Part shown: positions 18,666 through 36,826 of the stretch, piece after piece
Numbering within the stretch: the stretch's first letter is position 1
How the letters are laid out: every line of letters begins with the position of its first letter
Virus record (IMG/VR): IMGVR_UViG_3300037840_000077
Location: 1-40,233 of that record
Origin: a virus
Strand: one strand, 5' to 3'
DNA length: 40,233 nt
Notes under the pieces: generated by a model
The model's database searches: none
Told to the model about the DNA's origin: nothing
What the model saw: only the letters and a program-made list of their open reading frames with translations
Position numbers and translations under genes: made by a program

Positions 18666-18668
18666 GGG

Positions 18669-20708
18669 TTAGGGTCCGTTCGGGTCCATGTAATTGGGAT
18701 CGCCGGGGCTGGGTGGCCCAACATAGTTCGGGTCACCCGGGGATGGCGCGTACTGGTTCGGGTCGCCCTGGTAATACTGGCCCGTGTTCGGGTCGTAGAA
18801 GGTGCCGGGAGGCATCGTATTGCCGCCGGGGTTGGTGGAGCTGATGGACGGATCGGCGCCACCTCCACCGAAGAGGTTGCCGAGGCCACCGCCGCCCCCA
18901 CCACCGCCGAGCATGTTGGCGAGGTTCATCCCGCCGAGAGCTCCCGCCAGTCCCTGACCGGCAACGCTCTGCGGCTGAAGTCCTGTGAAGTTGGTCCCCT
19001 GGACGTTCTGCGTCCCACTCGTGGAGCCGTATCGCCCGGTCAGGCCGCCGATGATGCCTGACACGTCGCCCAAGCGCGTCAACGGATCGTAGAACTCCTG
19101 CCGCTGGAGGTTGATCGCGGAGCGCTGATTGGAAGCCGCGGCGAGAGACGCCCGGAGCTGATCCTGTGCCTGCTGGGCAGAGACGGCGTTCCGCGAAGCC
19201 CCGAGCGAGAGGTTTCCTGCCTCGCCCATGATCCCGGCAGGCAGTCCGACGAGACCCGGAGCGAGCCCCGCGGCCTGTCCCTGCTGCTGGCCGTAGGCCG
19301 TCGAGAGGCCACCCATCTGGCCCGACAGCGTTCCCATGTCTCCGTAGGCGTTCTGCTCGATGCCAGCCTGCATCCCGAGGCCGCCCTGGAGGGCCTGCAT
19401 CATGGCGAGTTGCTTCTGTTGGGCGAGCTGGGCCATCGCCACCTGGGCCTGGAGGCCAGCCGCACCACCGGCGGCCGACGCCTGCATGGCGCTCCCGGCG
19501 AGCTGCGTGTTGGCCTGGATCTGGGCCGCGTTGTACTGCTCTCCGATCTGGGCCGCTTGCATCTGCCGGGCCTGCTGGTCGGCGTAGCCCTGGTAGTAGA
19601 GCGGGGCCACCGCGTTGCCCACCTGTTGGGTCTCTTGGTTGGCCGCCTGGGCCATCGCGTTCTGCCAGGCGGACCCACCCATCAAGCCGCCACCGATCGC
19701 CTTGCTGGTGACCCCTGGCAGGGTCTGCTGGGCCATCTGGTTCTTGATCTGGGACGTGGCCGCGTTGACCATCTGCTGCATGGCCGGATTCTGCTGGTAG
19801 GGATTGTTCGTCAACTGCTGCTGAATGAACGCAGCCTCGCCGGCCACCGGGGGTGGAGCATTCGCCCCGGTGATGTTGAAGGACATGCCGCCGCCGCCTG
19901 AGAGCTGCGGGCCGCTTGAGGAGGTGGCGCCTGGACTGCCGGGCATCTGGCCGCCAAAGAGCATGTTGATGTACTGCTGCACCTGGGGATTGCCGCTCGC
20001 CGCAAGGCCCTGGAGGTTGCCGTAGGTGCTCTGATCCTGACCGTAGGTCTGAGAGAGATAGGGATTGACGTTCTGACCCTTGAGCAGTCCTTGCTCATAT
20101 CCCGAGGCCGCCTTGTAGAGCGGATTACTCGAGACGTTCCCAGCCATTCCCATCATGGCGTCGATCGCCTGCTGGTCGGTGGCCGAGACTCCGGTCAAAC
20201 CGACCGTGCCGCCGGCGGCGCCGCCAGTCGGCAGGCCGCCACCGCCCCCGGGAGAGGGCATCCCGTTCGTGGTGTAGCCGCCTGCCTGATTCTGGCCCGC
20301 AGCGGCAGACTTGGAATCTGCAAAGTCTACCCCTCCGCCTGGATTCGGCCCCTGGTAGTAGCCCGGATGGATGCCGCCGCCTCCGCCGCCAGGCTGGCCT
20401 CCGGTCGGGGTTGTTGGCGCCGCGGGGTTGCCGTACATGCCGGGGGTCCCGGGGCCTGGGTAGTTGGGGGCAGCGTTGCCCTGCCCGGTAGGAGTCGTGT
20501 TCCCCCAAGCCGCCGAACCCGGACCCAGGTCCCCGACCGCCTGCTGCATGATGTATTGCAGGTAGGGCGACGCCGGTCCCCAGGGGTTCGTCTGGGTGTT
20601 CGTCGTCGTCGTCATGTTCTCGTGGCCTGCGTTGGCGTTGTTGGCCGAGGCCGAAGCCGCTCCCGCCGCGCCACCGAGCAGTCCACCGAGCCAATCAGAG
20701 ATCCCCAT
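18669..20708 (-). CDS. Gly-rich internal virion/DNA-transfer protein candidate
   Basis: 679 residues. It starts MGISDWLGGLLGGAAGAAS, a Gly/Ala-rich hydrophobic N-terminus typical of podoviral DNA-transfer or ejection proteins, then NPWGPASPYLQYIMQQAVGDL, a pattern I recall from this class. Long Gly/Pro-rich linkers (about 95-190), a Gln/Ala-rich coiled coil (about 330-450) and a C-terminus with repeated DPNxxxPSPGDPN motifs follow. It likely enters the host membrane with the genome. Gene order (after nozzle, before other internal proteins) supports this. The family label is inferred. Confidence 0.65.
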   Translation of the reverse strand: MGISDWLGGLLGGAAGAASASANNANAGHENMTTTTNTQTNPWGPASPYLQYIMQQAVGDLGPGSAAWGNTTPTGQGNAAPNYPGPGTPGMYGNPAAPTTPTGGQPGGGGGGIHPGYYQGPNPGGGVDFADSKSAAAGQNQAGGYTTNGMPSPGGGGGLPTGGAAGGTVGLTGVSATDQQAIDAMMGMAGNVSSNPLYKAASGYEQGLLKGQNVNPYLSQTYGQDQSTYGNLQGLAASGNPQVQQYINMLFGGQMPGSPGATSSSGPQLSGGGGMSFNITGANAPPPVAGEAAFIQQQLTNNPYQQNPAMQQMVNAATSQIKNQMAQQTLPGVTSKAIGGGLMGGSAWQNAMAQAANQETQQVGNAVAPLYYQGYADQQARQMQAAQIGEQYNAAQIQANTQLAGSAMQASAAGGAAGLQAQVAMAQLAQQKQLAMMQALQGGLGMQAGIEQNAYGDMGTLSGQMGGLSTAYGQQQGQAAGLAPGLVGLPAGIMGEAGNLSLGASRNAVSAQQAQDQLRASLAAASNQRSAINLQRQEFYDPLTRLGDVSGIIGGLTGRYGSTSGTQNVQGTNFTGLQPQSVAGQGLAGALGGMNLANMLGGGGGGGGLGNLFGGGGADPSISSTNPGGNTMPPGTFYDPNTGQYYQGDPNQYAPSPGDPNYVGPPSPGDPNYMDPNGP

Positions 20709-20717
20709 CGTTTCCCC

Positions 20718-21284
20718 CTACAAACTCAGGACCCGAGGGAGGGCCGTGAGATACACCCCGAGAACGTGCAGGGCGTTGGCGTTTGAGTCAGGCGCGCTCC
20801 GAATCACTCCGACCGCCAGAACTTCCTGCGCCGTCGAGAAGTTATGAGCTGTCGTGCTCACCGTCTTGGTGAGCAGTGTATTGGCAACCGCTGGCCCGGC
20901 AACCGTGAAAGATACGGACTCAACCATCGGTGAAGACGTGAGCCCGGCAGACGCCACTCCGCTCACCCGGAAGACGAGAGAAAACGTGTTGGTCGATCCA
21001 GTCGGGGCCGTGAAGATGATCCGGGCCTGAATGTTGACGTTGGCCCAGGAGGTCCGCGGCCGGATCGTCCAGTGCGCCCCGCCCGTTGCCGCCGCCGCAA
21101 AGATGGCCACCGGGAAGTTGCCGTTGAACCCAAGGGTGACATTGGCGTTCGCCGCCATCGCATCGTTGGGGTCCAGAAAATGATTGTCCAGCACCTCATT
21201 GAACGCCGTCGCCATGGTGCGGAAGTTGGTGTTCACGTTGAGGGGCGTAACGTCCCAATCCCGCGTCTGGACATTGACCGGCAT
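20718..21284 (-). CDS. Beta-rich virion protein, 188 residues
   Basis: Start MPVNVQTRDWDVTPLNVNTN, with the ATG sharing one base with the nozzle-protein stop (TGATG). The rest alternates strands and Asn/Thr loops (NVTLGFNGNFPVAIFAAAATGG, NIQARIIFTAPTGSTNTFSLVFRVSG), typical of a small jelly-roll or tail-associated protein. It is probably a tail-needle or fibre accessory, on position alone. No family is recognised. The frame is open upstream, but the extension is antisense-like. Confidence 0.6.
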   Translation of the reverse strand: MPVNVQTRDWDVTPLNVNTNFRTMATAFNEVLDNHFLDPNDAMAANANVTLGFNGNFPVAIFAAAATGGAHWTIRPRTSWANVNIQARIIFTAPTGSTNTFSLVFRVSGVASAGLTSSPMVESVSFTVAGPAVANTLLTKTVSTTAHNFSTAQEVLAVGVIRSAPDSNANALHVLGVYLTALPRVLSL

Positions 21285-24200
21285 CAGTCGCGGCTCCGGG
21301 CTTCCCACGAAGCATAGATGCCCTTGATGGCGTAGAGCTGCCGCTGAACAGTGAGCGAGGCGAACTGGAGTTGGAAGGTCCACCAGTACCCCTCGATATC
21401 GTTGCAGGGGAAAGCCATCCGCTCCGAAAGAAGCTGCGGCGGATAGACGATCTGCCGATAGGCCCCCTGATTGGCTCGGTCGAACGGGTCCTCGGACACT
21501 TCGATTGTGAGTGTCACCTGAGTCGAGTTGCCGAAGATGTTGCCGGTATCAGAGAACACCGGGACCACTTCCCGCATGCGAACCCGTATCGGATAGTCCT
21601 GCTTGGGGTCCGACACGTAAGAGAAGCCACGCAGGCGTGGGCCGATCGGGGAGTCGTACTTCTCCATGCCGATCGCCCGGCGCTGCGTCTTGAGTGTGGC
21701 CTGATAGGTTGTCGCCGCCGAGAACTTGAACCACGTCGAAGCCGCCGAACCGTCCCAGGTGAACCCGGTCGTTCCCTTCAGAAGGTGGGTGTCCGTCGAG
21801 ATCGAGTTCAGGTTGTCACAAAACATCGCGTGGTACTGCGGATACCCGTTGATGTTGATGTGGGTCCAGCGGTCCTCGGTCGGGCTGTACACAACGCACT
21901 GCGACCGCTGCCAAGGCGGGTCGAATGGCCCCATGTAGGACCAAAAGATGAGGCCGGTCGAGCGGTCGTACCAGCCGACTATCGCCTGGTCCTCGTGGGC
22001 CATGTCGGGAGGGTCATACGCTTGAATGTACGGGTTGGTGGTGCTCAGAGCATCCGACAGGTAACTCGAAAGCACCTCGTCGCCCACCCGCACCGGAGCC
22101 GCGTAACCGTCCGTCTTCCAGAAGGAGCTGCCGCCCCACCAGTAGATCACTCCGTCTGCCCGCACGATCGAATTGGGGAAAGGCGTCCCGACGCTGGCCG
22201 ATACCTCGTCAATGCGGAAGACGTTGGCGTCACCCGTCCAGGTGATGGCGTGGATCGAGTTGCGCTTGAAGAGGGTGCCGAAGTCTCCACCCAGGAGTCC
22301 CATGATCTGGCCGGGGCGAGCTCGCACGAAGCCATTGGCCGAAAGGGTGGTGGCCGATGGGGTGAAAGAAGTCGGCTGGCCCGCACCGCTCCACCAGATC
22401 CAGTCCGGGCCGTAGTTGGTGAGGTTGATATCAGCCAACATCAGGAACTGGCTGCGCACCAGAGCCATGAAGCGCGCCTGGGGAGCCGGGGAGGGATCAG
22501 AGATGAGGCCGGAGAAGCTACCGCTTCCACCGAGCCGCGCCTGGATCGGGTCCACGTAGTTCGTCGCGTAGATATCCGGTCCAGCCTGAAGGAATCGCCA
22601 GCCGGAAGCCCGAGCACTGCCAGCGCCGAAACCGCTCCCCACCGAAGTCCAGCCAGAGGAGCTGACTGTGTAGATCTTGGTCGGCGTCCCGGCGTAGATG
22701 GTCGGCACGTCTCCCTTGTAGGAAGTGCCGGGGTCCGGGGCCTCGAGATCCGCCCAGGAGATTTGCACCTGAGCCGTCGAGGGCACGTCCAGCTCGACAA
22801 AGGACACGAAGCCCTGGCGCGGAGTCGGCACATCGAACTCGGCCCGGAATACCTGGACCGCAGTGCTCGACGGATTTGTGAAGTTGATCTGCAACGTGTC
22901 GTATCCACCGCCGGCCGTGATCTTCGCCACTTCCGCGGCGGTCAGCGTGTAGGAGTAAGTCGTTGGGCTCCCCGCCAGGCCACTGACAATGAAGAGCGTG
23001 ATGATGGGGTTGGCTCCCGGCTGCTGGAGAGTCGCCCAGAAGCTGTCCCCCGGATTGCCGGCTGCCCGGATCTTGAGAACGTGGAAGCCCGAGGTCTGCG
23101 GATTGACCACCGAAGTGCTCAAGCCAACGAGAGTGTTGTTGCCCCCGATCGCCTGGATACCCGTCGTGTCCGAGTTGTCGGAAAGAGCCTGCCAGTCCGT
23201 AGCCGCACCGAAGACCGACCACGGGGCCGGCGTCGTGATGTGGGACGCCGGGAGGACGGTCTGGGTGACCGTCGGGGTCACATCCGTCGGGTAGGCGGCT
23301 TCGATCTGGCCGGTGAGAGAGGTGTAGTCCGTGATTCCCTGTGCGGTCAAGACGGGGATCGACACCGAGTAGTCGGTTGGCGTCGTCGGGGCGTTCGTGA
23401 TGTTCACCTGGCCAACGACGGTTGACCCCTGGAGGATGTTGACCGTCACCGTCACCCCGGAATTGGTGGCCCACAGTCGAGCCTTCAAGGTGTGGTAAAG
23501 CCGCGTCAGCGGGTCCAGGAGGCTCGTCAGGTTCCAGGTGTAGGCCGGAGTAGCCCCAACCGGCAGAATGGCGCTCTCGACGTAATGGGTGGACTGTGCC
23601 GGGGCCGTAGAGATGGGGACGTACAGGTTGGCGCCGGAGCCGGTGTCCGTCAGCCACGTTCCGGCGGCAATGTCCGCAATCGCATAGCCCAACTGTCCGG
23701 TTCCGGCCGCGGAGGCGATGAACTGAAGGGCCAGCTTCGTGTAGTCGGTGATGGCCCCAGCCTGAAGCGTCGTCAGGTTCCACGCTTGCTGGAGGAAGCC
23801 CGGCTGCGCACCGCTCCCCGAGACGGTGTTGGAGGCAATGACAGTGGCCCCGGGATTCTGAAGGAGTTTGACCACCAGAGACCACGCTCCGGTCGTGGCC
23901 GGAATGGCGTACCGCACCTGATAGACGTGGCCGGAAGTCGTGCCGGGACTGCTGATCGAGGACAGCGCCAGCGTGGCCAACTGCGACGACGGAGCGTTCG
24001 GAGCATAGATGAAGCTCGCATCGTTCGGGGTCACCGCGTCGATCTGGGAAAACAGGGTGGTCCCCATCGACGGCTGCCAGATACCCGGAGTCGTGTCCGC
24101 ATTGGGCCGGGCGTACTGCGTCACCCGCGCCTGCTGGAAGATGTGAACGAGTGCCCCGGTCACCGGGCCATCCGTCACCGATGCCTGGGTGAGGGCCTGC

Positions 24201-24322
24201 TGCACCGCCCGGAAGCTCTGGTGGACCGGCAGCACGTTGTCGGCCACCGCCAAGGCTCCGCCCTGGTCTCCGCTGTCGGGGACCCAGCCAGGCGTATCGA
24301 AGCTCACGAAGGTGACAGGCAT
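21284..24322 (-). CDS. Tail nozzle/stabilisation protein with inserted beta-sandwich repeats
   Basis: 1012 residues. The C-terminal half (about 560-900) resembles the podoviral tail nozzle or DNA-stabilisation type (P22 gp10/T7 gp12 class): RFMALVRSQFLMLADI, GFVRARPGQIMGLLGGDFG, NSIHAITWTGDANVFRID, GVIYWWGGSSFWKTDG, a beta-propeller-like alternation. The N-terminal part carries three similar 90-120-residue beta-sandwich-like modules (about 130-230, 275-360 and 400-500), two sharing AITDYTKL/GITDYTSL. Its place directly after the adaptor fits a nozzle. The repeats would add extra surface domains to the tail. The family is inferred from fold-like pattern and gene order. Confidence 0.65.
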   Translation of the reverse strand: MPVTFVSFDTPGWVPDSGDQGGALAVADNVLPVHQSFRAVQQALTQASVTDGPVTGALVHIFQQARVTQYARPNADTTPGIWQPSMGTTLFSQIDAVTPNDASFIYAPNAPSSQLATLALSSISSPGTTSGHVYQVRYAIPATTGAWSLVVKLLQNPGATVIASNTVSGSGAQPGFLQQAWNLTTLQAGAITDYTKLALQFIASAAGTGQLGYAIADIAAGTWLTDTGSGANLYVPISTAPAQSTHYVESAILPVGATPAYTWNLTSLLDPLTRLYHTLKARLWATNSGVTVTVNILQGSTVVGQVNITNAPTTPTDYSVSIPVLTAQGITDYTSLTGQIEAAYPTDVTPTVTQTVLPASHITTPAPWSVFGAATDWQALSDNSDTTGIQAIGGNNTLVGLSTSVVNPQTSGFHVLKIRAAGNPGDSFWATLQQPGANPIITLFIVSGLAGSPTTYSYTLTAAEVAKITAGGGYDTLQINFTNPSSTAVQVFRAEFDVPTPRQGFVSFVELDVPSTAQVQISWADLEAPDPGTSYKGDVPTIYAGTPTKIYTVSSSGWTSVGSGFGAGSARASGWRFLQAGPDIYATNYVDPIQARLGGSGSFSGLISDPSPAPQARFMALVRSQFLMLADINLTNYGPDWIWWSGAGQPTSFTPSATTLSANGFVRARPGQIMGLLGGDFGTLFKRNSIHAITWTGDANVFRIDEVSASVGTPFPNSIVRADGVIYWWGGSSFWKTDGYAAPVRVGDEVLSSYLSDALSTTNPYIQAYDPPDMAHEDQAIVGWYDRSTGLIFWSYMGPFDPPWQRSQCVVYSPTEDRWTHININGYPQYHAMFCDNLNSISTDTHLLKGTTGFTWDGSAASTWFKFSAATTYQATLKTQRRAIGMEKYDSPIGPRLRGFSYVSDPKQDYPIRVRMREVVPVFSDTGNIFGNSTQVTLTIEVSEDPFDRANQGAYRQIVYPPQLLSERMAFPCNDIEGYWWTFQLQFASLTVQRQLYAIKGIYASWEARSRD

Positions 24323-24335
24323 TTAAGTATTCACT

Positions 24336-25088
24336 TCAGGGCAAACCCCAGCGGTCGTAAGCCTCGCCGAATGCTCGAGGAGCCTGCCAGCCCTGACCCT
24401 TGAGGGCATACCAGCGCTTGGTCAGGTTGGCGATACCGGAAGCCATCATCTCCTGCTGGTACTGCCGCTGCTGCTCATCCTTGGTGATCGAGCTGTGGTA
24501 GTCCGCTGCCACCGCGGCGCGGAGGACGTGATACCCCTGGCCCTCCTTGAACCACGGATTGGTGATCCCGGTCCCCGCTGGCGCTACACCCTGCGACGAG
24601 GTGATGGGGAGACCGGAAGTTTGGTCTCGGGTGGCGTCCTTCAGGTAGTCGAAGCCGATCGTGATGACCTGAGAGGGAAGCGGCCCGATGACTACCGCTC
24701 CATGGTGGAAGGCCCAATACATGGGCCAGACCCCCTGGAAGGGGAACCGCAGGAAAGACGAACGCAGGAACTCGATGGGCACCGGCCCCTTGATGGACAC
24801 ACCGAGGAGCTGCGGGTTTCCAGCCGTCACGATGTAGAAGGAATCGAACTCCTTCACATCGGGAGGCACCCCGGTATAGGTGACCGTGCCGGGATTCTGG
24901 CCGGTGGGGTACTCGGCCTGATTGGCCGTCGTGTTGAAGGAGCCGCTGTTTTCCATCCACAGGATCTCCCGGAAACCGGAGAGCTCGCCCAGCATCCGCA
25001 CAACCGAATCCTGTAGGAACGGAATGACCCTGGCGTTCTGATTGTCGAGGGTGCCGTAGATGGTAGTGACGAACGTTGGAAAATCCAC
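24336..25088 (-). CDS. Head-to-tail adaptor (podoviral gp4-like)
   Basis: 250 residues. The helical N-terminus (MDFPTFVTTIYGTLDNQNARVIPFLQDSVVRMLGEL), middle strands with VIGPLPSQVITIGFDYLKDAT and the end NPWFKEGQGYHVLRAAVAADYHSSITKDE are typical of the adaptor that joins portal and nozzle in P22-/T7-like phages. Neighbours agree: capsid genes upstream, nozzle downstream. It would form a 12-fold ring closing the head after packaging. The family is recognised from pattern and order. Confidence 0.65.
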   Translation of the reverse strand: MDFPTFVTTIYGTLDNQNARVIPFLQDSVVRMLGELSGFREILWMENSGSFNTTANQAEYPTGQNPGTVTYTGVPPDVKEFDSFYIVTAGNPQLLGVSIKGPVPIEFLRSSFLRFPFQGVWPMYWAFHHGAVVIGPLPSQVITIGFDYLKDATRDQTSGLPITSSQGVAPAGTGITNPWFKEGQGYHVLRAAVAADYHSSITKDEQQRQYQQEMMASGIANLTKRWYALKGQGWQAPRAFGEAYDRWGLP

Positions 25089-25119
25089 TGTGCGCCACCC
25101 CCTTCCTACGAAAGATCAG

Positions 25120-25147
25120 CGGTGGAGCAGGCGTCCCCGCCCCACCG
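25120..25147 (-). repeat. Hairpin between decoration and adaptor genes
   Basis: On the minus strand CGGTGGGGC pairs with GCTCCACCG (9 bp with one G-U) around a 10-nt loop. The following bases, TGATCTTTCG, give only a short T-run. It lies in the 68-bp gap before the adaptor and could attenuate transcription or protect the upstream capsid mRNA, which would help to raise capsid over tail proteins. Confidence 0.4.
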
Positions 25148-25156
25148 GAAGAGCGT

Positions 25157-25675
25157 TTACTTCCAGGTGCAGTGCATCGTCACAAGCGCGCTCTGCGCCG
25201 TGGCTGCGGTGGCCGTGATCTTCAGGCCAAGGTAGCCATAGGGCTTCGCGTTGCTGATGCCGATGCCGCACGCCCCAGAACCGGCCGTCGAAGGCAGGAG
25301 CGGGAGAATGAAGCCCGTGGGGGCGGTCCCGGCAGCGGCCATCCCCAGAGCGGAGTAGTTGGCGGTCGTCGCCAGAACCGTGTCCGTCACGGTCGCGGCG
25401 GCGGTGCCGTCGATGGTCCGCAGGACGATCGACTGCGCCAGGGTCGGCGAGCCGTTGGTGTCTGCGGCGCGTGCCCACGTCAGAGAGACCGTGAGGATCT
25501 GCTTGCCCAGCGGAATCGGCATGAGCGAGAAAAACCCCGCCGCGTCCCCCAGGTAGGCAGTCGTGAGCGTGGCCTGCGCCACGTCCCCGTCGAGGTCCAT
25601 CGGCCCGTAGAACGGCCGAGGAGAGAGGGCATTGCCCGAGGTGTCGAAGAGGGTCGCATTGTAGTAGGTGCTCAT
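25157..25675 (-). CDS. Probable capsid decoration or minor head protein
   Basis: 172 residues, directly after the major capsid protein. Strand-rich and Ala/Thr-rich with MSTYYNATLFDTSGNALSPRPF at the start and a C-terminal YGYLGLKITATAATAQSALVTMHCTWK. The small beta-rich composition next to the capsid gene is typical of decoration proteins, but no family is recognised. It may instead be a small tail or head-completion protein. Confidence 0.55.
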   Translation of the reverse strand: MSTYYNATLFDTSGNALSPRPFYGPMDLDGDVAQATLTTAYLGDAAGFFSLMPIPLGKQILTVSLTWARAADTNGSPTLAQSIVLRTIDGTAAATVTDTVLATTANYSALGMAAAGTAPTGFILPLLPSTAGSGACGIGISNAKPYGYLGLKITATAATAQSALVTMHCTWK

Positions 25676-25684
25676 GATTCCCCC

Positions 25685-26854
25685 TTAGACGTCCGAGTAG
25701 TGCGAGATGATCCCGCACCCAAAGGTTTCGCCGTTGACGACCGTGCGGGTGAACCCGACGATCGTATCGACGATGAAGCTCCACCGACGGAAGATCCAGA
25801 ACTCCTTGAAGCCGAAGTGGTCCCCGCCAGTGAAACCGAGACCGTAGCCGCACATGCCGCTGCGCTGCCCCAGGAGCACGGCGCGCTTGCAGTTGGCCTG
25901 CGCCGAGCCGGTGCCCGAAGGCGAACCCGGAGAAGCGTTGACGATGCCGGGGGTGCCGAAGTCCGTCTTCAGAACCACCGTGTCACCGTAGATGAAGCCC
26001 TGACCGGAGACGAGGGGGTTACTGTCGTACCCCTCGGAACCCTGGATCGCCGCTCGAGACAGATCGTAGAAGTCCGTCGCCGAGCTGTTGAGCTTGATCT
26101 GCTGGAAGCCCTGCGGACCCGCAAGCAGGACGAACTTCTTGCCCCACGGGGTGTTCATCGGAGCCAAGGGCCACGAGCAGTAGTCCTTGGAGGTCCAGCG
26201 CTTCACCACCTCGTCAATCGTCCGGGTGGAGAGCAGCGCCGACGTCGCGCCGGCAACCGCGGTCTCCGTGGCCGACTGCGAACCGATGGCCGAACCGGCC
26301 GCCGGCACAAGGAACCACTTGTTGGTGTCGGGCGCCAAAACCGGATTGCCCAACGAGAACACGTAGTCGGTGAAGTTGTTGACGTTGGTCCCCGCGCCGG
26401 GGATACCGGAGGGGATGACGCCGTTGTAGCCCATCAGGTGGCGCAGGCCAGAACGCTCCCAGTGCTCCGCCCACTGGCGAGCCACGCGGCCCACCTCGTT
26501 GCGTTGCAGTGAGAAAGCGACCTGATTCTGCTCCGCCGGAACGTTCGGAACCGCCCCGTCCAGGAGTTGGTAACGCAACTGGAGGGTGGTGTTGATGTAG
26601 GAAGTCCCCGCCTCCTGGCCGATGATGTTCTGGACCGAAGTCTTGGGGATATCGGTCTGGTTCGGCTGCGAGAACCGGATATTGAGAATGTCTCCGCGGC
26701 CCTGGTTTTCCTGGAAGTCCTCGCAGACAAAGCCGTCGTCGGACTCCTCGCCCTCAAAGAGCTTGAGGACGCATTGCCGCTCGGCTTCGACCGTGACTCC
26801 AGCCCGCCAGTTTTGCTGGGAGAGCGGATTACCCGGAAGAATCGTGGTGGGCAT
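25685..26854 (-). CDS. Major capsid protein, N4-gp56/DUF4043 family
   Basis: 389 residues. The pattern GDILNIRFSQPNQTDIPKTS, LQRNEVGRVARQWAEHW, DEVVKRWTSKD, and a C-terminus with GLGFTGGDHFGFKEFWIFRRWSFIVDTIVGFTRTV is the HK97-fold capsid family DUF4043/N4-gp56-like. It would assemble, with the scaffold encoded upstream, into the procapsid. The ATG at 26854 is chosen because GAGGAGGTG stands just upstream; a GTG start 3 codons earlier is possible. A 328-bp leader containing a terminator and a possible promoter precedes it, unlike any other late gene. Confidence 0.85.
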   Translation of the reverse strand: MPTTILPGNPLSQQNWRAGVTVEAERQCVLKLFEGEESDDGFVCEDFQENQGRGDILNIRFSQPNQTDIPKTSVQNIIGQEAGTSYINTTLQLRYQLLDGAVPNVPAEQNQVAFSLQRNEVGRVARQWAEHWERSGLRHLMGYNGVIPSGIPGAGTNVNNFTDYVFSLGNPVLAPDTNKWFLVPAAGSAIGSQSATETAVAGATSALLSTRTIDEVVKRWTSKDYCSWPLAPMNTPWGKKFVLLAGPQGFQQIKLNSSATDFYDLSRAAIQGSEGYDSNPLVSGQGFIYGDTVVLKTDFGTPGIVNASPGSPSGTGSAQANCKRAVLLGQRSGMCGYGLGFTGGDHFGFKEFWIFRRWSFIVDTIVGFTRTVVNGETFGCGIISHYSDV

Positions 26855-27082
26855 TGGCCCCACCTCCTCTGAGAATGGAGCATCCGCAGACGGACACTCC
26901 GGTTAGGGGAGGTGGTGTAGGGGCTCCCGGCCCACTCTCGTCTCGGGAGGAGGTGCCGCCTCTCTTCGGTCAGAGCCCGAGAAGAGGAGAGGGCTCGCGG
27001 TCTAGCCGCCGAATCCACCGGGGATCAGCCGGGGGATGCGACGGAGGAGGTTGCCGCAACCATCTGCGCCAGTGGCGCTCTG

Positions 27083-27111
27083 CGCAAAAGACGCCCTGGG
27101 CAGTGTGTCAA
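27083..27111 (-). promoter_or_regulatory. Possible promoter for capsid expression
   Basis: A perfect -35 hexamer TTGACA lies at 27111-27106 on the minus strand, just after the terminator. At 17-bp spacing the -10 would be TTTGCG (27088-27083), a poor match to TATAAT. The location suits a dedicated capsid promoter, but the weak -10 keeps confidence low; a phage-specific or activator-dependent promoter would be another reading. Confidence 0.3.
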
Positions 27112-27133
27112 GTATGCCACAGCACCAGCGGGG

Positions 27134-27164
27134 AAAAATAGGGGGGCCAGCCCGACTGACCCCC
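27134..27164 (-). terminator. Rho-independent terminator after the scaffold gene
   Basis: On the minus strand GGGGGTCAG-TCGGG-CTGGCCCCC forms a 9-bp stem (one T-G pair) with a 5-nt loop, followed by CTATTTTT. It begins 18 bp after the scaffold stop codon. Termination here is likely partial, so that packaging genes and capsid genes are made in different amounts. Confidence 0.7.
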
Positions 27165-27182
27165 TGTCCCCGAAGTTGCTTG

Positions 27183-28229
27183 CTACCTTCCCTGTCGGCC
27201 CTGAACCCAGGCCGTACTGTAAAGAGCGTTCAACGGGTCACGCACCTCCTGCCCGCGGAGCGCCTTGTGGAGGTCCTTCGCCCTGGCCGCTCCCTTGCCG
27301 CCACGGGTCAACTGTGTGACCGGATCATTCCCCTGAGGTGCCCGCGAGCCGCCCTGAGAGAGACTGCCGGACTCCGGGGCCGACTGAGCCTCCCGGAGCT
27401 CGCGGACCCGCCGCGGCACCGGAGGCGGTTCTGGCTGGCTCATTGCCTCTTCCGCCGCTTGCTGGGCGCCGTCACCGTAGCCGCCGAGGTAGGAGTCCAC
27501 GAAGTTGGCCGGGTGACGGCCCATCTGCTCGCCGCGACGCCAGAGGGCGTAGAGATCCTGAATCGCCTGAGCCGCAGCGACTTCCGGGGTGTAGCCCTGC
27601 GCCTGGTGCATCTGAGTCGTCTGGGCGAGGTAGCTGTCCACCCGGTTCCGATAGCCCGGCGAGACAGACTCATACTCCGCCTCGAGCTGGTCCACCCGGT
27701 TCATCTCTCCCTGGTAGGCCTGGGCCTGGTACTGCTGCTGCTGGTACTGCACCTGCTGCTGGTAGGTCTGGATCGCCTGCATCCGCATGTGCTGCTCGAG
27801 CTGGGCGACGCGATCGCCGTAGGGGGCAACCGCCTGCCGCATGGCCCACTGAGCCCACTTGTGCTGATCGTTCCGGTCGGGCTCGGGGTCCGGGTTCTGC
27901 GGGGGAGCCATCGCCTGGGTCTGCTGGGCGATCTGCTGACGCAGTTGGGCAAGCTCGCGCTGCGTCGAGACGGTCTGCTCGCGAGCCTCCCGGAGGGCAT
28001 TCTCGTTCTCCCGACGACGCCGGTACGCCTCGTCAATCCGGGCTCTGGCGCCCGCGGCGGCGGCGCTTGGCCTCTCGGTAGGGGCCTCTTCTCTTGGGGC
28101 CTCCTGCTTGACGCCAGAGGCCTTCTCGACCACCTCCTGGACAAACTGCTCGGAAGCCGGGAGCGAGGATTCGCCACCACTCCCTGACTCCTCTGCGCCC
28201 GCTCCGCCAGTTTCAAAGTCGTCTGCCAT
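27183..28229 (-). CDS. Scaffolding protein candidate
   Basis: 348 residues between portal and capsid genes, the usual scaffold position. The N-terminal 60 residues are acidic and Gly/Ser-rich. A long coiled coil follows (IDEAYRRRRENENALREAREQ, STQRELAQLRQQIAQQTQ, and a Gln/Tyr-rich QQVQYQQQQYQAQAY). The C-terminus is basic (RAKDLHKALRGQEVRDP). Acidic start, coiled coil and basic C-terminal capsid-binding end are general scaffold traits. It would guide procapsid assembly and leave before packaging. There is no named family match. Confidence 0.7.
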   Translation of the reverse strand: MADDFETGGAGAEESGSGGESSLPASEQFVQEVVEKASGVKQEAPREEAPTERPSAAAAGARARIDEAYRRRRENENALREAREQTVSTQRELAQLRQQIAQQTQAMAPPQNPDPEPDRNDQHKWAQWAMRQAVAPYGDRVAQLEQHMRMQAIQTYQQQVQYQQQQYQAQAYQGEMNRVDQLEAEYESVSPGYRNRVDSYLAQTTQMHQAQGYTPEVAAAQAIQDLYALWRRGEQMGRHPANFVDSYLGGYGDGAQQAAEEAMSQPEPPPVPRRVRELREAQSAPESGSLSQGGSRAPQGNDPVTQLTRGGKGAARAKDLHKALRGQEVRDPLNALYSTAWVQGRQGR

Positions 28230-28241
28230 ACAAGAGCCTTT

Positions 28242-30638
28242 CTATTGCCCCGGTGGGGGCGCTGGCGGACCCGGAGGGCCACCATTGGGTGGAGGAGGTG
28301 GGGTGCCCCCCGGAGGCGGCGGTCCTTGTGGAGGAGGACCACCGGCCGAGGCCCCTCCGGGGGGCGGTTGCTGCGGAATGAGGCCTGCCTGTGCAAGCAT
28401 CTGCATGGCGAGGTTGGGATCGGCCGCGTACACGTCCTTGAAATTGATGCTCTCGGACGGGGGCCGCTGGTGGCTGGGCAACCGAATGCCCGCTTTGTCG
28501 AGGAGCTGCTGCACGGCGTCAGGCCCCATCGACTGTAGCATTTTGACCACATCCTGGGGGTTCGGCCCCTGGTTCTGCTGCGAGATCTTCTGCTCCATCT
28601 TGTCCGCCAGCTCCTCCCCCATGTTCTCGGGCAGCGGCGAGCAGCGCATGAGCATCGGCAGGAAGTCGTCCCCGAACCCCTGCTTGACGATCGTGCCGGC
28701 GAGGTCCGTGATGACAAAGGAATTGAAAGCCGCGAGCTTCCGGGTGGGCGAGGCCACCTCGGTATCGACCGTCACGTCATAGTCGAACGGGTCCTTCGTC
28801 TTGAGAATGTCCGACGGACGGATGGGGCGCTCTGCCGGCTGGCCGGTCTGCGGATCGGGTTGGCCCTCGTCATCCGGGATCGTGATCGGGACGGTCTGCA
28901 TCTGCGGCGAGCCGTCGTCTCCCTGTGGCGGCTGGCCGGTCTGCGGATCAGGGGGAGCCGGTTCCTGCTTGACCGTCAGACCCATGATCGGCGGCACCTC
29001 CCCGAGCATCCGGTCAATCTCGGACGACGGGAGGTGCTTCAAGGCGAGCGCCGCAGCGAGCCGCCCTTCGTCCTCGAGGAAGAGGTTGTAGTTGCGGAAG
29101 AGAGCTCCCAGACCCTGGAGGCTCTTTTCCTGCATCGAAGTGAGCGCCTGATTGGAGGCGTCCGGTCCTACTTGTCCCTTCTGGGCGTCCCCAATCAAGG
29201 AAATCTGGCCAATCAGCCCGATACAGAACTGGAGGAAGTTGTGCGGGCCGTCCGGGATCTGCTGCACCGGCTTCGGCATGATCTTGGGCTGCGGCGTGAG
29301 AGACCCCGGCTGGACCGCAGTCCACGATCCTGGCCGGCTCTGATCCTCGACAAACTTCTCGGCGGAGGCTAGCGGCACGTCGGTTTCAAAGAAGCCGCCG
29401 CCCTTGGCCCCGCGCATCAGAATGTCGAGTTCAACGCTTGCCGCCCGGTTGATGAACATCTGCGGCTGGTAGATGGCTCTAGCGAGGCCAAAGAACTGCA
29501 CCCGGCGCTCCTTGGCCTTCCGCCACTTGAAGCCGGTCAGGCACCGAATCGGGAACATCGGCACCGAAAGCTCCTCGTGCGAGAGCACCGTCCCGCCGCC
29601 CTTGGCCCCACTGCCGGCCGACGCGGTGCCGGTCGCAATGTAGGCCTGGTAGTACCGGCGCCCGACGTAGTTATGCCGCTGATCCTCAGGGATGCCGTCC
29701 GGGTACGGATTGACCGGCCCGACCGGCTCTCCGGTCAGGGGATGCAGGCCGCCATCGTCCTCCATGCCCTGGAGTTCCTTGTGGCGAGCCATCATGTCGT
29801 CGTGGCTCTCGTCTACTTCCTCGCCAGTCTTGGGGTCCACGTAGTAGACCCGCGGCATCCCGCGCCAGTAGAGAAGCCGGTAGATGAAGATGCGGCTCCT
29901 CGAGGTCACCGAGCGAATGGTCGACATACCGGAACCAACCGGGATGATGTCAAGCCCAGAGAGGTTGAGCGCTCCGCCCGGCCCCAGCCCCGCCTGAATG
30001 CCGTCCGCTGCATCCGGCCAGCGGGCCTCCACCTCCTCAAGGAGCCATTGCCGCTCATGGATCATGAAGCGGGCATCGGCCAGATTCGTCTCGACGGCAT
30101 CGGGGTCCGGCCACACCTCGTGGAAAGGAACTCCCCGGCGAACGACGTGAACCGGAATCCGCGACGTGTCGAGGTAATGCTCGGTGAAGCCGTAGCCCGT
30201 CAAGAGCATCGACTGGAGGGCTTCGTCGTCGTGGTCGTGGGCCTGGCAGCGGTCCATCTCCTGGCGCACAATGTCGGTGATCCAGTCCCCGATGGCGTCC
30301 TCTTCGGCGCTCATGTCCTGGCCCTTGTACACGGCGTCTTTCTGCTCGTTCATCCCCGAGATGGCGTTCATCGTCGAGAGCGCGAAGTTGAAGGACACCG
30401 GCGGCCGGTACGTCTCTGCCAGATAGAGCTGGTCCTGCTGCGTCAGGGTCTCCCCGGCGTACATGTCGAGAAGGCGCTCGATCTCCGACTTGATCGGGTC
30501 AAACCAGGAAGTAGAGTTGTTGTAGCACTCGTGGAAATAGGACAGGAGATCGTCGTCCGACAGCGGCAGCCCATAGCGAAGCTGGCCGGTGTTCGTGACT
30601 CCCGGCTTGCGCGGCCCCGCTGGACCCTTTTTCGCCAT
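28242..30638 (-). CDS. Portal protein, P22-like
   Basis: 798 residues, close to the length of P22-type portals. The N-terminal region has EIERLLDMYAGETLTQQ, YRPPVSFNFALSTMNAISGM, then YGFTEHYLD and VWPDPDA, and RSRIFIYRLLYWRGMPRVYYVD, typical of this portal family. It forms the dodecameric ring at one capsid vertex for DNA packaging and exit. The end is Pro/Gly-rich (GGASAGGPPPQGPPPPGG). The ATG at 30638 shares one base with the terminase stop (TGATG); a GTG at 30650 is an alternative. Confidence 0.9.
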   Translation of the reverse strand: MAKKGPAGPRKPGVTNTGQLRYGLPLSDDDLLSYFHECYNNSTSWFDPIKSEIERLLDMYAGETLTQQDQLYLAETYRPPVSFNFALSTMNAISGMNEQKDAVYKGQDMSAEEDAIGDWITDIVRQEMDRCQAHDHDDEALQSMLLTGYGFTEHYLDTSRIPVHVVRRGVPFHEVWPDPDAVETNLADARFMIHERQWLLEEVEARWPDAADGIQAGLGPGGALNLSGLDIIPVGSGMSTIRSVTSRSRIFIYRLLYWRGMPRVYYVDPKTGEEVDESHDDMMARHKELQGMEDDGGLHPLTGEPVGPVNPYPDGIPEDQRHNYVGRRYYQAYIATGTASAGSGAKGGGTVLSHEELSVPMFPIRCLTGFKWRKAKERRVQFFGLARAIYQPQMFINRAASVELDILMRGAKGGGFFETDVPLASAEKFVEDQSRPGSWTAVQPGSLTPQPKIMPKPVQQIPDGPHNFLQFCIGLIGQISLIGDAQKGQVGPDASNQALTSMQEKSLQGLGALFRNYNLFLEDEGRLAAALALKHLPSSEIDRMLGEVPPIMGLTVKQEPAPPDPQTGQPPQGDDGSPQMQTVPITIPDDEGQPDPQTGQPAERPIRPSDILKTKDPFDYDVTVDTEVASPTRKLAAFNSFVITDLAGTIVKQGFGDDFLPMLMRCSPLPENMGEELADKMEQKISQQNQGPNPQDVVKMLQSMGPDAVQQLLDKAGIRLPSHQRPPSESINFKDVYAADPNLAMQMLAQAGLIPQQPPPGGASAGGPPPQGPPPPGGTPPPPPNGGPPGPPAPPPGQ

Positions 30639-32266
30639 CAATCGACCCACGCGGAGTGGTGCTTACTCGGGTTGTGGCGACGGCCGGCCATCTGGTCGGC
30701 AAGCCACGAGTTGAAGAGGTCCTTCGGAGCCATCTGCTCCGGCAAGTTCTGCGGGTACACCGGCCGCACTTCCGGCTGATCGACCCAGGCCATGGCGTCG
30801 AGCATGTCATCGTTGAGGACCGCCCGGCGAAGCGGAGTCCAGAAACGGTATTCGTCCTCCAGGAACTGGTGCAGGGTGTCCCGGCGGTCTGCCTTGCTGC
30901 CGTGACCGAAACCGTCCTTCGGGAAGATGTGCTCCTTCCGCGAGAAGGCCCCCTGGAGCTCCTGAATGCGGGCTTCCTTCGGTCGCTGCCGCGCTACGTC
31001 TGGAACCATCTGCAGACGGAAGCGAAAGCTGCGGCGATTCTGCTCCGCCTGGAGCTGCTGGTAGATGGCCTTATCTTCCAGCCAGACGCAGTGAGGGTGC
31101 CAGCGGGCCACGAGAGAGAAGAGTCGGTCGAATTGGTCCATGAGGCGTTCGCGCTCGCGGGAGAGGTCCAGGTGGTAACGATGCCGGTCCATTCCCAACC
31201 CTTGGACAGAAATGACTCCATAGTCCTCTCCGATACCTAGCGTGAAGTCACAGAAGAAGTGGACGATCTTCCCGAGCGCTTCATCCTTCGGTGGCTTCGT
31301 GTAGTACTCGAGCCACGCCTGATCGAAACTCTGTTCGCCCTTGGCAACCGGCACGAGGTGAAGCTGGCACGAAGAGACATAAGGCCCCATCTCGCGCTCC
31401 CACTGTGCGAGCTGCTTCTTGCTGCGGAGAACCGGAGTCCCGGCCTTGTCGTAGCATCCGGTCGGGTCCCAGCGGGAGAAGAAGCCCTCGCGGGCAAGGA
31501 TCACGTTCGGATCGTCCGCGTCCCAGATCGTCCCGATGTGTACCGAAAGCGTGTCATCGGAGCGTAGCGCAGTCGCCAGCCGGATCGCCTCCACCGTGGC
31601 CCGGACCGTTTGGCGGCTCTCAACGGTCTGTTTGATCGTGGTGTCGTCAAACACGATCCTCCGATAGTGTCCTGAAGTGGGCTGCTTGTCGAGCGAGTGA
31701 ATGGAGAACGACGGCTCCTTCGGCCCCGGAGGCCGCTTGATGGTGCAAGCTGAATTCGTCCAGAGAGGGTATTCCTTCGTCTCAACGGCCAGACGGTCCG
31801 GCCAGTGCCGGATCAGGACCGCGTTCCGCTCGAGCTCTTCCATCAGCCCGCGGAACATCATCTCGCCCATCTGATCCACCTTGTAGGTCAGGATACACGT
31901 CGTCATCCATGGATCTTTCAGGGTGAGCCAAATGGAAGGCAGCTTGTTGCACAGCTCGGTCTTGAAGTGGCCGCGAGCGAAGAAGTAGGACGCGTTCGGG
32001 ACGGCCTGCTCGATGTCTTGCTGGATCAGCCGGCAGAGGTCGAAACAGAACGCCTGATCGATCCACCAGCCGCCCTTCTCCCGATGGTCCGGGTCCTTGA
32101 TCTGGTAGTGGCCGAACGTCGAAGCGTACTTGACGAAGAAGTAGTAGTCAGCTTCCGCCACCGCCCGGAACTTCTCGGCCGCGAGAGTTGGGTCCGTCTC
32201 GTGACGAATGTCATCGAGGACGGCTTCGTAGACCGGACTATCCGGGGAAGACGGAAGCTGCCACAT
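30638..32266 (-). CDS. terL: Terminase large subunit
   Basis: 542 residues. The ATPase part has a Walker A of the form A97-R-G-H-F-K-T (ARGHFKT) and a Walker B IVFDD (Asp207, Asp208), with the motif TILTYK-like CILTYKVDQ between. The nuclease half shows Asp340 in FFCDFTLG, Glu397 in WLEDKA and Asp486/Asp490 in NDDMLDAMAW, candidates for the RNase-H-type metal site. It would translocate DNA into the procapsid and cut it. The small subunit and portal flank it. Confidence 0.9.
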   Translation of the reverse strand: MWQLPSSPDSPVYEAVLDDIRHETDPTLAAEKFRAVAEADYYFFVKYASTFGHYQIKDPDHREKGGWWIDQAFCFDLCRLIQQDIEQAVPNASYFFARGHFKTELCNKLPSIWLTLKDPWMTTCILTYKVDQMGEMMFRGLMEELERNAVLIRHWPDRLAVETKEYPLWTNSACTIKRPPGPKEPSFSIHSLDKQPTSGHYRRIVFDDTTIKQTVESRQTVRATVEAIRLATALRSDDTLSVHIGTIWDADDPNVILAREGFFSRWDPTGCYDKAGTPVLRSKKQLAQWEREMGPYVSSCQLHLVPVAKGEQSFDQAWLEYYTKPPKDEALGKIVHFFCDFTLGIGEDYGVISVQGLGMDRHRYHLDLSRERERLMDQFDRLFSLVARWHPHCVWLEDKAIYQQLQAEQNRRSFRFRLQMVPDVARQRPKEARIQELQGAFSRKEHIFPKDGFGHGSKADRRDTLHQFLEDEYRFWTPLRRAVLNDDMLDAMAWVDQPEVRPVYPQNLPEQMAPKDLFNSWLADQMAGRRHNPSKHHSAWVD

Positions 32267-32469
32267 TACTGGCCCAGGATGCGGTTTGCCTTCGCTCGGA
32301 TCTGGGCCGCCATGGCTCCCGACAAGCCGCCAGCTTTCACTTGCTGGGTGGCGCGGGCCTTCGCGTTCGCCGCGTGACTCTTGTCGGGCATCGGGTACTT
32401 GCGCTCACCGGGGATGCCAAACTCCTCGGCGGGAAGAGCGTTCCGTGACTTGGCCTTGAGCTTCGCCAC
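32266..32469 (-). CDS. Small conserved phage protein (DUF6582-like)
   Basis: 67 residues. The pattern KLKAKSRNALPAEEFGIPG, then ERKYPMPDKSHAANAKARAT and a basic end RAKANRILG recurs widely in phages as a small protein or as a tail on capsid maturation proteins, and I recall it as DUF6582-like. It is a short basic protein of unknown function, possibly DNA-associated. Its stop overlaps the terminase start. Confidence 0.65.
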   Translation of the reverse strand: MAKLKAKSRNALPAEEFGIPGERKYPMPDKSHAANAKARATQQVKAGGLSGAMAAQIRAKANRILGQ

Positions 32470-32470
32470 G

Positions 32471-33016
32471 TCAGCCGCCCTTCTTGAGGCGCGCCATCGC
32501 TCCAGCGAGACCGCCAGGGGGCGCCTTCGGGGCGACAGGCTTCGGCATTGGCGGCGGCTTCTCGGCTCCGGTTGGAACCTTGAGGCTCACCGCCACGGCG
32601 CCCTTTGGAACCGCGACCTTGACCGCTCCGGGGTGACCGCCATGCTCTCCGGTGTGGCTCCCGAAGTGTCCCATGTGGCCACCATGCGGAACTCCCACCG
32701 CGATCGCCAGGTGAGGCATCATCGCGTGGCTGCCACCGAGCATCGGCATGCTTGGAGCGCCAGGTGCACCGATGCCGGGAGGCGGAATGCCGGGAAGCCC
32801 CGGAGCTCCCGGAACGTGCATCGCCAAGCCCGGCGGCAGCCCTGGGGGCATGCCCGGAGCCATCGGCAGGCCTGGACCGCCAGCCGCTCCGCGCAACGCA
32901 GCGAGCTTGGCGGCAATGGCCTGGGTCAGGAGATCGCCACCGGGAGCCCCAGCAGGCGCGCCAGAGGGCACCGACAGGGCATCAGGAGGTAGCGTCGGCG
33001 GTAGCGGTAGCGCCAC
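32471..33016 (-). CDS. Pro/Gly-rich protein between the terminase genes
   Basis: 181 residues, strongly low-complexity: PPTLPPDALSVPSGAPAGAPGGD, then a Pro/Gly/Met-rich middle (PGLPMAPGMPPGLPPG), a His/Gly segment (GVPHGGHMGHFGSHTGEHGG) and a C-terminus with PKGAVAVSLKVPTG. Probably disordered and of virion or packaging use, unknown. The GTG start at 33016 has GGAGG upstream and lies within the last 35 bp of the small-terminase gene, so the two overlap. Confidence 0.55.
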   Translation of the reverse strand: MALPLPPTLPPDALSVPSGAPAGAPGGDLLTQAIAAKLAALRGAAGGPGLPMAPGMPPGLPPGLAMHVPGAPGLPGIPPPGIGAPGAPSMPMLGGSHAMMPHLAIAVGVPHGGHMGHFGSHTGEHGGHPGAVKVAVPKGAVAVSLKVPTGAEKPPPMPKPVAPKAPPGGLAGAMARLKKGG

Positions 33017-33731
33017 TTCCCACCTCCTTCAGTTGACCGCGGATGGCCCTCGTTTCGATGAACTGATCAAGCCAACTCTTCTGACTCTCGGCCCCTTCGG
33101 CGGTCACGGCGAGGGTCCCCGAGTGCTCGACCTTGACCCTCGGGCTGTAGCGGGCCGGATCGTGCGCCTGGAGGTACATCTGGGCCGCCCGGACGTTGCC
33201 GTCGCGGGCTTTCCGCATCGTCGCGTCCTCGACGCCAATGACCCACTTTCCCATGATCGACAGGTAGCGGGAGTAGAAGGCCTTCGACTCACGAGCCCAT
33301 CCCTGGACAGTGCTCCAGGAGACTCCCACCGCCTTCAAGGCCTGCAGGCGATCGTCGTGCTCTTCCATCGCCTCGAGGAAGGCCTTCTGGTCGGCCGAGA
33401 GGTCCGCTTCTTCGCCTTCCGGTACGTTCTGCATCTGATCCGATTGCCGGCGAAGAGCAGCCAGCTTCTGACGCTCGGCGGCGAGGGTAGTGGCCCGGTC
33501 AATGACATTGGCCGCCTGGGCTTCTCGGGCGCCCTTCCACTTCCGACGCTCGCGGATCTTCTCCCTCTCCGCCGCAAAGCCCTTCGTATCAATCGCCCAC
33601 CCACGAACGACCGACGGCACCACGAGAAGGCTCTCGTTGAATGCCGTCTCTGTCTGATCGTCCGGGCGGTCCTCGAGGAGGCCCAGGTATTCCTCCGGCG
33701 TTGCCACGAGGCGCTTGCGGTGCGCTGGCAC
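32982..33731 (-). CDS. terS: Terminase small subunit candidate
   Basis: 249 residues. The C-terminal half has the usual TerS pattern: a DNA-binding helix-turn-helix-like GVSWSTVQGWARESKAFYSRY, then VEDATMRKARDGNVRAAQMYLQAHDPARYSPRVKVEHSG. The N-terminal half is helical and charged (REKIRERRKWKGAREAQ). It lies upstream of the large terminase with one gene between. It would recognise the packaging site in phage DNA. GTG start directly follows the previous TAG. Confidence 0.7.
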   Translation of the reverse strand: MPAHRKRLVATPEEYLGLLEDRPDDQTETAFNESLLVVPSVVRGWAIDTKGFAAEREKIRERRKWKGAREAQAANVIDRATTLAAERQKLAALRRQSDQMQNVPEGEEADLSADQKAFLEAMEEHDDRLQALKAVGVSWSTVQGWARESKAFYSRYLSIMGKWVIGVEDATMRKARDGNVRAAQMYLQAHDPARYSPRVKVEHSGTLAVTAEGAESQKSWLDQFIETRAIRGQLKEVGSGATATADATS

Positions 33732-34841: not shown

Positions 34842-34844
34842 CCG

Positions 34845-35654: not shown

Positions 35655-35656
35655 CG

Positions 35657-35956
35657 CTACCCCAGGCACACCCGGCAGACACCGCCAGCCGCGGCCACGG
35701 TGTAATACTGCCAATCGACCGGAATGGTCTTGAAGGTGGAGACAGCCACCGTGAAGCTCGACGGAGCGCCTGAGCCTCCACTGATGACGGTGCCGGAAGC
35801 GTTGTCTACCCGCGTCACCGTCGCCGTGCAGCCGGAGTCCGTGATGATCGACAGGTAGGAGTAGATCTGCGCCTCGATGATGGTCGAAGCCGAAGCCGCA
35901 ACGAGCCGCACCTCGAAATCGAGGGAGTTGGGATTGATCGTGCGTCCGCCGCTCAT
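35657..35956 (-). CDS. Small beta-rich protein of the fibre region
   Basis: 99 residues: MSGGRTINPNSLDFEVRLVAASASTIIEAQIYSYLSIITD, then Thr/Ser-rich strands (TVTRVDNASGTVISGGSGAPSSFTVAVSTF) and a Cys-containing end. It is beta-strand-like, probably a virion surface or fibre accessory. It is not recognised. Its TAG lies 2 bp from the next ATG. Confidence 0.55.
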   Translation of the reverse strand: MSGGRTINPNSLDFEVRLVAASASTIIEAQIYSYLSIITDSGCTATVTRVDNASGTVISGGSGAPSSFTVAVSTFKTIPVDWQYYTVAAAGGVCRVCLG

Positions 35957-35965
35957 CGGTTCATC

Positions 35966-36814: not shown

Positions 36815-36826
36815 CGTCAGTCTCCC

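Follow-up and report, generated by a model that had tools for sequence, protein, structure and literature searches.

Organization of the late genes and the capsid leader

The window (the whole stretch of DNA analysed here) is the 40,233-base record of an uncultivated virus with its late genes on the minus strand (Table 1). The 348-aa scaffold-like protein had no family match in the PHROGs or Pfam scans, and beyond the gene for the 172-aa protein the late block continues with genes for a 250-aa protein, a 1012-aa virion protein that matches PHROGs, and others. An earlier note on this DNA had claimed that the only long gap in the late block precedes the capsid gene, and codon-based gene calls for the minus-strand block 9899-38692 bore this out: the gap is 328 nt long and is flanked by the scaffold-like and capsid genes, and the other gaps are at most 97 nt, apart from two called gaps of 402 and 211 nt that are open reading frames (34845-35714 and 12609-12794) split or missed by the caller. 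No gene was called in this capsid leader, each of the three sense frames contains at least one stop codon, and small open reading frames considered there were not convincing. Two Rfam matches around the gap were both far below gathering score, and no Rfam family reached that score in the window. The C/G ratio of the leader, considered with a C-rich Rho-type site in mind, was 0.9-1.7. No match to csrA (PF02599) was found in the window record at E <= 1, and CsrA was rejected as a regulator in the window on that ground; a phage RNA polymerase was likewise not found among the 19 window proteins compared with Pfam and the 20 compared with PHROGs.

Elsewhere in the window, a 12-nt tandem repeat resembling CTGCGGCCNGGG forms long arrays at 3237-3635 and 1577-1799, and a 12-pair hairpin with a poor T-run lies at 25147-25120, in the 68-nt gap between the genes for the 172-aa and 250-aa proteins.

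Table 1. Late genes and elements of the capsid leader. Positions are those of the window unless preceded by L330.
Feature	Position	Strand	Basis or remark
Terminase gene	30638-32266	(-)	PHROGs match
Portal gene	28242-30638	(-)	Matches in PHROGs and Pfam
Scaffold-like gene, 348 aa	27183-28229	(-)	Named by its position between portal and capsid alone
Capsid leader, sole long non-coding gap of the late block, 328 nt	26855-27182	(-)	Gene calls; matching leader at L330:1473-1830
First leader hairpin, whole	27130-27171	(-)	Inner stem plus outer stem
Outer stem around inner hairpin	GGGGA 27171-27167 / TCCCC 27134-27130	(-)	
Inner stem GGGGGTCAG-TCG-GGCTGGCCCCC, terminator-like	27164-27142	(-)	T-run at 27138-27134
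TTGACA, candidate -35, inside CTTGACAC	27106-27111	(-)	CTTGACAC common to the L330 leader
Anti-SD segment 1, ACCTCCTC	27044-27051	(-)	
Anti-SD segment 2, CACCTCCTC, 9-bp complement of capsid SD	26947-26955	(-)	Pairs with SD in minimum-energy fold
Anti-SD segment 3, CCACCTCC, complement of GGAGGTGG of SD	26908-26915	(-)	Pairs with SD in local fold
10-bp hairpin GGAGTGTCCG-TCTG-CGGATGCTCC	26877-26900	(-)	Between anti-SD segment 3 and SD
Capsid Shine-Dalgarno (SD) sequence AGAGGAGGTG, strong	26861-26870	(-)	
Major capsid gene, 389 aa	25685-26854	(-)	ATG at 26854; PHROG 334, Pfam Phage_capsid_3
172-aa protein gene	25157-25675	(-)	Late block, after capsid
L330 capsid leader, 358 nt	L330:1473-1830		Directly before capsid

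Terminator-like hairpin and TTGACA box

The inner stem of the first hairpin starts 18 nt past the scaffold stop codon, has a dG of -18.0 kcal/mol and is followed by the tail CTATTTTTC, in which the T-run begins 3 nt past the stem. This GC-rich hairpin with its T-run has the make-up of an intrinsic terminator, and the terminator that the earlier note had placed in the gap is present as sequence. Terminator-like sites as a class were not in excess, with 12 found against 11.4 expected in a generic scan of 20300-40233, and 12 candidates, equal to the shuffle mean, in a stricter test of both strands of the whole window. The leader hairpin had the lowest energy among those candidates and was the most compact hairpin-plus-T-run in the window; its -0.78 kcal/mol per base was reached in 0 of 60 whole-window shuffles, and a dG of -18 or lower, taken alone, was seen in 40% of them. 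A terminator is a plausible reading for the window and is absent in the relative L330 described below. The earlier note had supposed that the gap would let the phage make more capsid than packaging proteins, whereas a terminator acting by itself would reduce the expression of capsid.

The TTGACA box matches the -35 consensus at six of six positions. The same note had singled out this perfect TTGACA, which is indeed there but is commonplace in the window (7 copies against 10.75 expected, so not rare) and lacks a partner: no sigma70 -10 was found 16-18 nt from it, the hexamers being TTTTGC, TTTGCG, and TTGCGC. Scans of 1-20000 and 20300-40233 for sigma70-type promoters returned one promoter against about four in shuffles, with a consensus that may not be that of the host. 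The window TTGACA gains weight only from L330.

Possible sequestration of the capsid ribosome-binding site

The capsid SD has three upstream complements of 8-9 nt each, a feature absent from the earlier note. At least three anti-SD 8-mers occurred in 0.13% of 3000 shuffles, and just 3 of the 799 overlapping minus-strand 306-nt stretches tested carry three anti-SDs, all three overlapping the capsid leader. The sense strand of 26820-27182 folds better than its shuffles (z -3.06, 0/100), as do the 86 nt around the ribosome site (26840-26925; z -3.49, 1/200 shuffles), where the SD is closed in the fold. The several hairpins that had been claimed for the gap hold for this sense strand, but less so for the plus strand of the stretch marked in that claim (z -1.79) and for the central 135 nt of the leader (z -0.50); the first 53 nt gave z -2.00.

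SD accessibility before the capsid gene was 0.002, the lowest of 26 late genes (several without a clear SD), but 22% of shuffled upstream sequences were equally closed, and this measure does not decide the matter by itself. The 8-bp stem that lies closest to the SD arose in 5.6% of shuffles. The capsid start codon also lies inside a possible small hairpin, GGGC-CAAT-GCCC, at 26858-26847.

A matching leader before the capsid gene of a relative

The 42,919-base contig L330, the one contig found through the 1012-aa protein of the window, encodes homologues of the capsid (57% identity), portal (56%), 1012-aa (51%), and scaffold-like (37%) proteins. Its scaffold-like gene adjoins the portal gene, and the scaffold and capsid genes are separated by 7.7 kb of other genes, a gene order unlike that of the window. 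Because the contig ends carry a 227-nt repeat with one mismatch, we take the record to be circularly permuted, which puts the capsid gene about 7.7 kb behind the scaffold gene. The scaffold-like gene is directly followed by genes for a helix-turn-helix (HTH) protein (Pfam HTH_31) and for a separate protein, a 38% homologue of the product of window gene 11497-12579, and then by a gene for an endolysin-type glycoside hydrolase 19; the HTH gene and lysis-type genes between scaffold and capsid occupy G001 contig 1-7034 and L330:1-1472.

Both leaders contain, in the same order, a GC hairpin, TTCCCCGC, CTTGACAC, and then AGGAGGTG closed by an upstream complement, with CTTGACAC at -258 in the window and -298 in L330. 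The L330 leader starts with a branched GC-rich hairpin ending in CCCCGC; the T-run is not kept, no terminator-like site was found in this leader and none was seen right after the L330 scaffold gene. Its TTGACA, the only copy that the 16.6-kb locus has on its coding strand, is followed after 18 nt by TAAAGT as a -10, and this pair has a sigma70-type score of 10/12 that was reached in 0/50 and 0/3000 shuffles; shuffles of the leader contained TTGACA in 1.5% of cases and CTTGACAC in 0.4%. At the end of the leader, GCACCTCCTGC complements the SD GCAGGAGGTGC over 11 bp (1/2000 shuffles), so that the SD could pair with upstream sequence in both leaders, with any of three segments in the window and in this 11-bp stem in L330. 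Overall stability was ordinary (z -0.31; local z -1.03). Sharing of k-mers was modest, at one 10-mer (0.4 expected) and 13 overlapping 8-mers (5.1 expected), an automatic alignment placed the two TTGACA boxes 9 columns apart, and the comparison is one of two genomes with several tests chosen after inspection.

Since L330 keeps these elements despite the intervening 7.7 kb, we concluded that the leader travels with the capsid gene and not with the scaffold gene. The earlier note had interpreted the gap as a control region that uncouples capsid from packaging genes, and the hairpin, CTTGACAC, and ribosome-site hairpin that stay with the L330 capsid gene support that interpretation. A separate capsid promoter is likely; L330 and the analogy with the csrA group described below, in which a capsid promoter at a site of its own is common, argue for it, and the missing -10 in the window weakens it.

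A single late transcript might instead read through the gap, with the hairpins serving mRNA processing and stability and no promoter involved: cleavage in the leader would yield a capsid mRNA shielded by structure at its 5' end, and the packaging mRNA would have its 3' end guarded by the first hairpin. The missing -10 and the strong sense-strand structure of the window fit this account, as do csrA-less relatives, which have tandem hairpin leaders mostly without sigma70 matches. The good -10 of the L330 TTGACA and the retention of a matching unit where the capsid gene lies behind other genes speak against it, and we regard it as possible but unlikely.

Single-sequence searches of viral contigs with the window capsid, portal, and a 1067-aa protein found no relatives, and since the L330 capsid and portal are 56-57% identical to those of the window, these negatives indicate only that the short search patterns let such relatives slip. 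The corresponding search with the terminase returned two relatives at 26-27% identity, and the window terminase had no match in an annotated phage collection.

Precapsid gaps in distant relatives

More distant relatives were found by capsid and terminase alignments, each listing giving the best 80 loci: the best 80 of 82, of at least 352, and of at least 310 in viral contigs (three in the last set duplicating earlier loci), and the best 80 of 111 in bacterial genomes. The first sets, together with four annotated phages and the window, gave 109 loci with a capsid gene and 101 with a usable start; 2 of the 101 had no callable upstream gene and 5 had gaps outside 10-450 nt, leaving 94 loci, or 66 after the removal of near copies (window included). 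Of the 157 loci in the later sets, 145 could be used; in 124 an upstream gene of 150 aa or more lay at 10-450 nt, and removal of 61 near copies left 63. A precapsid gap of at least 67 nt was present in 64 of the 66 nonredundant listed loci, and all 63 later loci had one, of 92 to 427 nt, both sets having been selected for gaps of 10-450 nt. This is the comparison with relatives that the earlier note had suggested, and it qualifies the claim that the position is unusual, which is true within the window, whereas among the relatives such a gap is usual.

The same counts bear on the notion that the leader is a passive spacer or the remnant of a lost gene. The absence of a called gene and the stops in all three sense frames are what such a remnant would have, and modules do move at the corresponding place in L330; against this stand the recurrence of the gap in both sets and the elements common to the L330 leader, and we give this notion hardly any credence.

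A capsid tree made without L330 and rooted at its midpoint placed the window on a very long branch, so that its position is unsure. All 28 csrA loci fell into one clade of 33 rows (100/100), with most of the loop hairpins described next outside it; which state is older depends on the root.

Loop hairpins in the precapsid leaders of relatives

Many of these leaders carry hairpins with a GCGUNA-type loop, which we defined as a stem of at least 4 bp with the loop core CG[TA][ACT]A. The 37 listed leaders that lie behind a long gene (among them the window, with no copy) contained 51 such hairpins against 4.6 in shuffles, with 4 on the antisense strand, and they were present in 24 of the 37; the other 29 leaders had 5 against 2.2 in shuffles. 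In 63 held-out leaders we counted 62 against 5.5 expected, 8 antisense, in 40 of the 63. When no core was assumed, the loop pattern xCGTnA ranked first in 100 leaders (19 against 0.25), and loop hairpins had a density of 8.0 per kb within leaders and of 0.78 per kb elsewhere in those loci. Pair counts on 26 selected hairpins lean on that selection and were not counted as proof. Rfam 15 gave no gathering-level match to the loop hairpins in 12 loci, two of them csrA loci. In the window leader no hairpin with the CG[TA][ACT]A core was found (0.08 expected), nor was one found by pattern in the L330 leader; a model search of the sense strand of the window leader reached at best 4.0 bits (E 2.7), and an antisense match of 9.5 bits had E 0.09 in 461 bases and 7.9 in the whole window.

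Tandem, strand-specific arrays of GCGUNA-loop hairpins occur in L005, L008, L029, L089, L097, L100, L106, L118, L128, and other loci, and the held-out leaders with such loops lie within L169-L324. In six loci (L013, L018, L059, L249, L303, and L309) the upstream stop codon is soon followed by a hairpin whose loop resembles GGCTTAAA and, after it, by TTTCG; this may be a weak terminator-like or a related loop element. The phage contig L100 also carries an abiF RNA (Rfam RF03085) above gathering score at 5448-5511, far from its capsid gene.

The strand bias of these hairpins is relevant to the idea that the window leader holds a DNA-level site, for instance a signal for packaging or replication, an idea that its long GC-rich segment with inverted repeats would fit. 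The 51 sense against 4 antisense copies in relatives, the stronger structure of the sense strand of the window than of the somewhat shorter plus-strand stretch, and the pairing of the most specific repeated element with the capsid SD all speak against such a site, which we consider very improbable.

csrA leaders and terminators in relatives

A profile grown from PEp14 gp9 detected csrA in 28 of the 66 loci, in 27 of them within 233 nt of the capsid gene, and in none of the 157 later listed loci; examples are L002, L003, L009, L030, L062, L073, L074, and L075. The best match to TTGCAA-N16-18-GATAAT, a consensus derived from these same leaders without a shuffle control, was at least 9/12 in 14 of the 28, 13 of these with 17-nt spacing. 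With the standard sigma70 consensus, 13 of 66 leaders reached 9/12 against 4.45 expected, 11 of them from csrA loci. Because folding 25 csrA leaders to a consensus on their sequence alignment yielded no base pairs, helices were tested for directly; one of at least 6 bp flanking the SD (for example GGAAGTGC/GCACTTCC) was found in 15 of 28 csrA loci against 4.5 expected, with no clear excess in the others (16 of 98 against 11.9). CsrA core sites (ANGGA) were not in excess in the csrA clade (9 against 8.0 expected); for a direct control of capsid by CsrA in that clade, the adjacency of the genes is thus the only hint. In phage JC1, csrA lies at 28,367-28,561 and the capsid gene starts at 28,660 (gp47-gp48), and the available portion of PMC9144972 terms csrA a moron; csrA genes in phages are reported by PMC7366521 and PMC8450108, in the available portions of which the word capsid does not occur.

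Strict terminators were present in 5 of the 66 leaders, the window included (shuffle mean 1.7, largest 6), and in 9 of 100 leaders (shuffle mean 2.05, largest 5), all but one of these nine in Bartonella; a terminator as a general feature of the family was accordingly not supported. A looser hairpin-plus-TTT test (31 of 100 leaders against 10.0 in shuffles) was discarded as unspecific, with 21 on the antisense strand. Among the Bartonella leaders, 13 of 16 have, some 50 nt upstream of the capsid start, a hairpin (mostly CCGGC-loop-GCCGG) and a T-run; the prophage loci include L171 (two in tandem), L187, L192, L200, L208, L213, L226, L232, and others. This placement leaves almost no room for a promoter and suggests control by read-through or anti-termination. 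For the gene transfer agent of Caulobacter, the available part of PMC11150451 describes anti-termination that acts past terminators within a phage-like gene cluster.

The first hairpin of the window might also be an attenuator, whose efficiency would be set by translation of the upstream gene, with read-through fixing the level of capsid relative to scaffold. That link to translation is drawn from the 18-nt distance between stop codon and hairpin, and in E. coli the ribosome represses terminators near a stop codon, a distance above 27 nt being called sufficient in the available text of PMC4824070; the Bartonella terminators also fit. An attenuator is harder to reconcile with the lack of a T-run in L330, the 280 nt of leader that follow the window hairpin, and the rarity of strict terminators in both sets, and we consider it improbable.

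A proposed control region for the capsid gene

We favour the reading of the gap as the 5' control region of the capsid gene itself, in which a boundary between transcripts and a promoter combine with a ribosome site that is kept closed, and hold this reading to be somewhat better than an even bet. The sequence elements, their statistics and the matching set before the L330 capsid gene are observed. In the proposed scheme, the hairpin past the upstream stop codon would end, or partly end, the packaging transcript, and a promoter with TTGACA as its -35 would start the capsid mRNA near 27075, leaving some 220 nt of 5' untranslated sequence. The very strong capsid ribosome-binding site would be held shut by pairing with the upstream anti-SD segments, and capsid translation would rise only once the fold over it opens. 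The fold might be opened by ribosome loading, by RNA processing, or by a phage protein.

A phage requires far more capsid protein than portal or terminase, and in phage T7 a dedicated promoter, phi10, precedes the capsid gene 10. The arrangement proposed for the window would resemble phi10 as a separate start of capsid transcription inside the late block, and unlike T7, which has its own polymerase, the window has a sigma70-like -35 with no recognised -10 and adds a lock on the ribosome site. In its position before a related capsid gene the leader is like the csrA-capsid leaders of Bcep22/PEp14-like podoviruses (PEp14 gp9-gp10; JC1 gp47-gp48, from the available portion of PMC9144972), which often have a promoter-like TTGCA-N17-GATAAT and a helix flanking the ribosome site; it differs from them in lacking csrA and in its promoter sequence and leader. 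It shares with the GCGUNA-loop leaders of other relatives its place, a similar length and sense-strand hairpins, but the search by pattern found no copy of the loop in the window or L330 leader. With a hairpin and T-run that follow a stop codon at short distance, the leader recalls translation-sensitive terminators and attenuators, as in the part available of the tR2 study (PMC4824070), although the T-run of the window is not conserved in L330. The components of the leader are thus of known kinds, and their combination and retention with the capsid gene are new. Among the titles and abstracts listed in searches of the open-access literature on capsid leaders, structured RNA motifs, csrA-capsid pairs, precapsid terminators and SD sequestration, none describes these leaders.

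The more interesting part of the result is an exchangeable slot with an apparently undescribed hairpin array, one that is absent from the window itself. We tentatively propose, at a little less than even confidence, that the precapsid stretch is a regulatory slot across a very large podovirus and prophage lineage in which devices have been exchanged. The GCGUNA-loop array would be an undescribed RNA element, widespread and perhaps older, with a phage protein, for instance capsid or scaffold, as its probable binding partner; it would have been replaced by csrA with a promoter and ribosome-site hairpin in one clade, by terminators in Bartonella prophages, and by a hairpin, promoter, and ribosome-site lock in the window and L330.

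How the ratio of capsid to portal and terminase is set is, to our knowledge, unclear for many phages that lack a T7-like polymerase. A leader linked to the capsid gene, with varied devices at one place, makes this question testable with reporters, and the hairpin array offers a defined RNA motif with which to fish out a binding protein.
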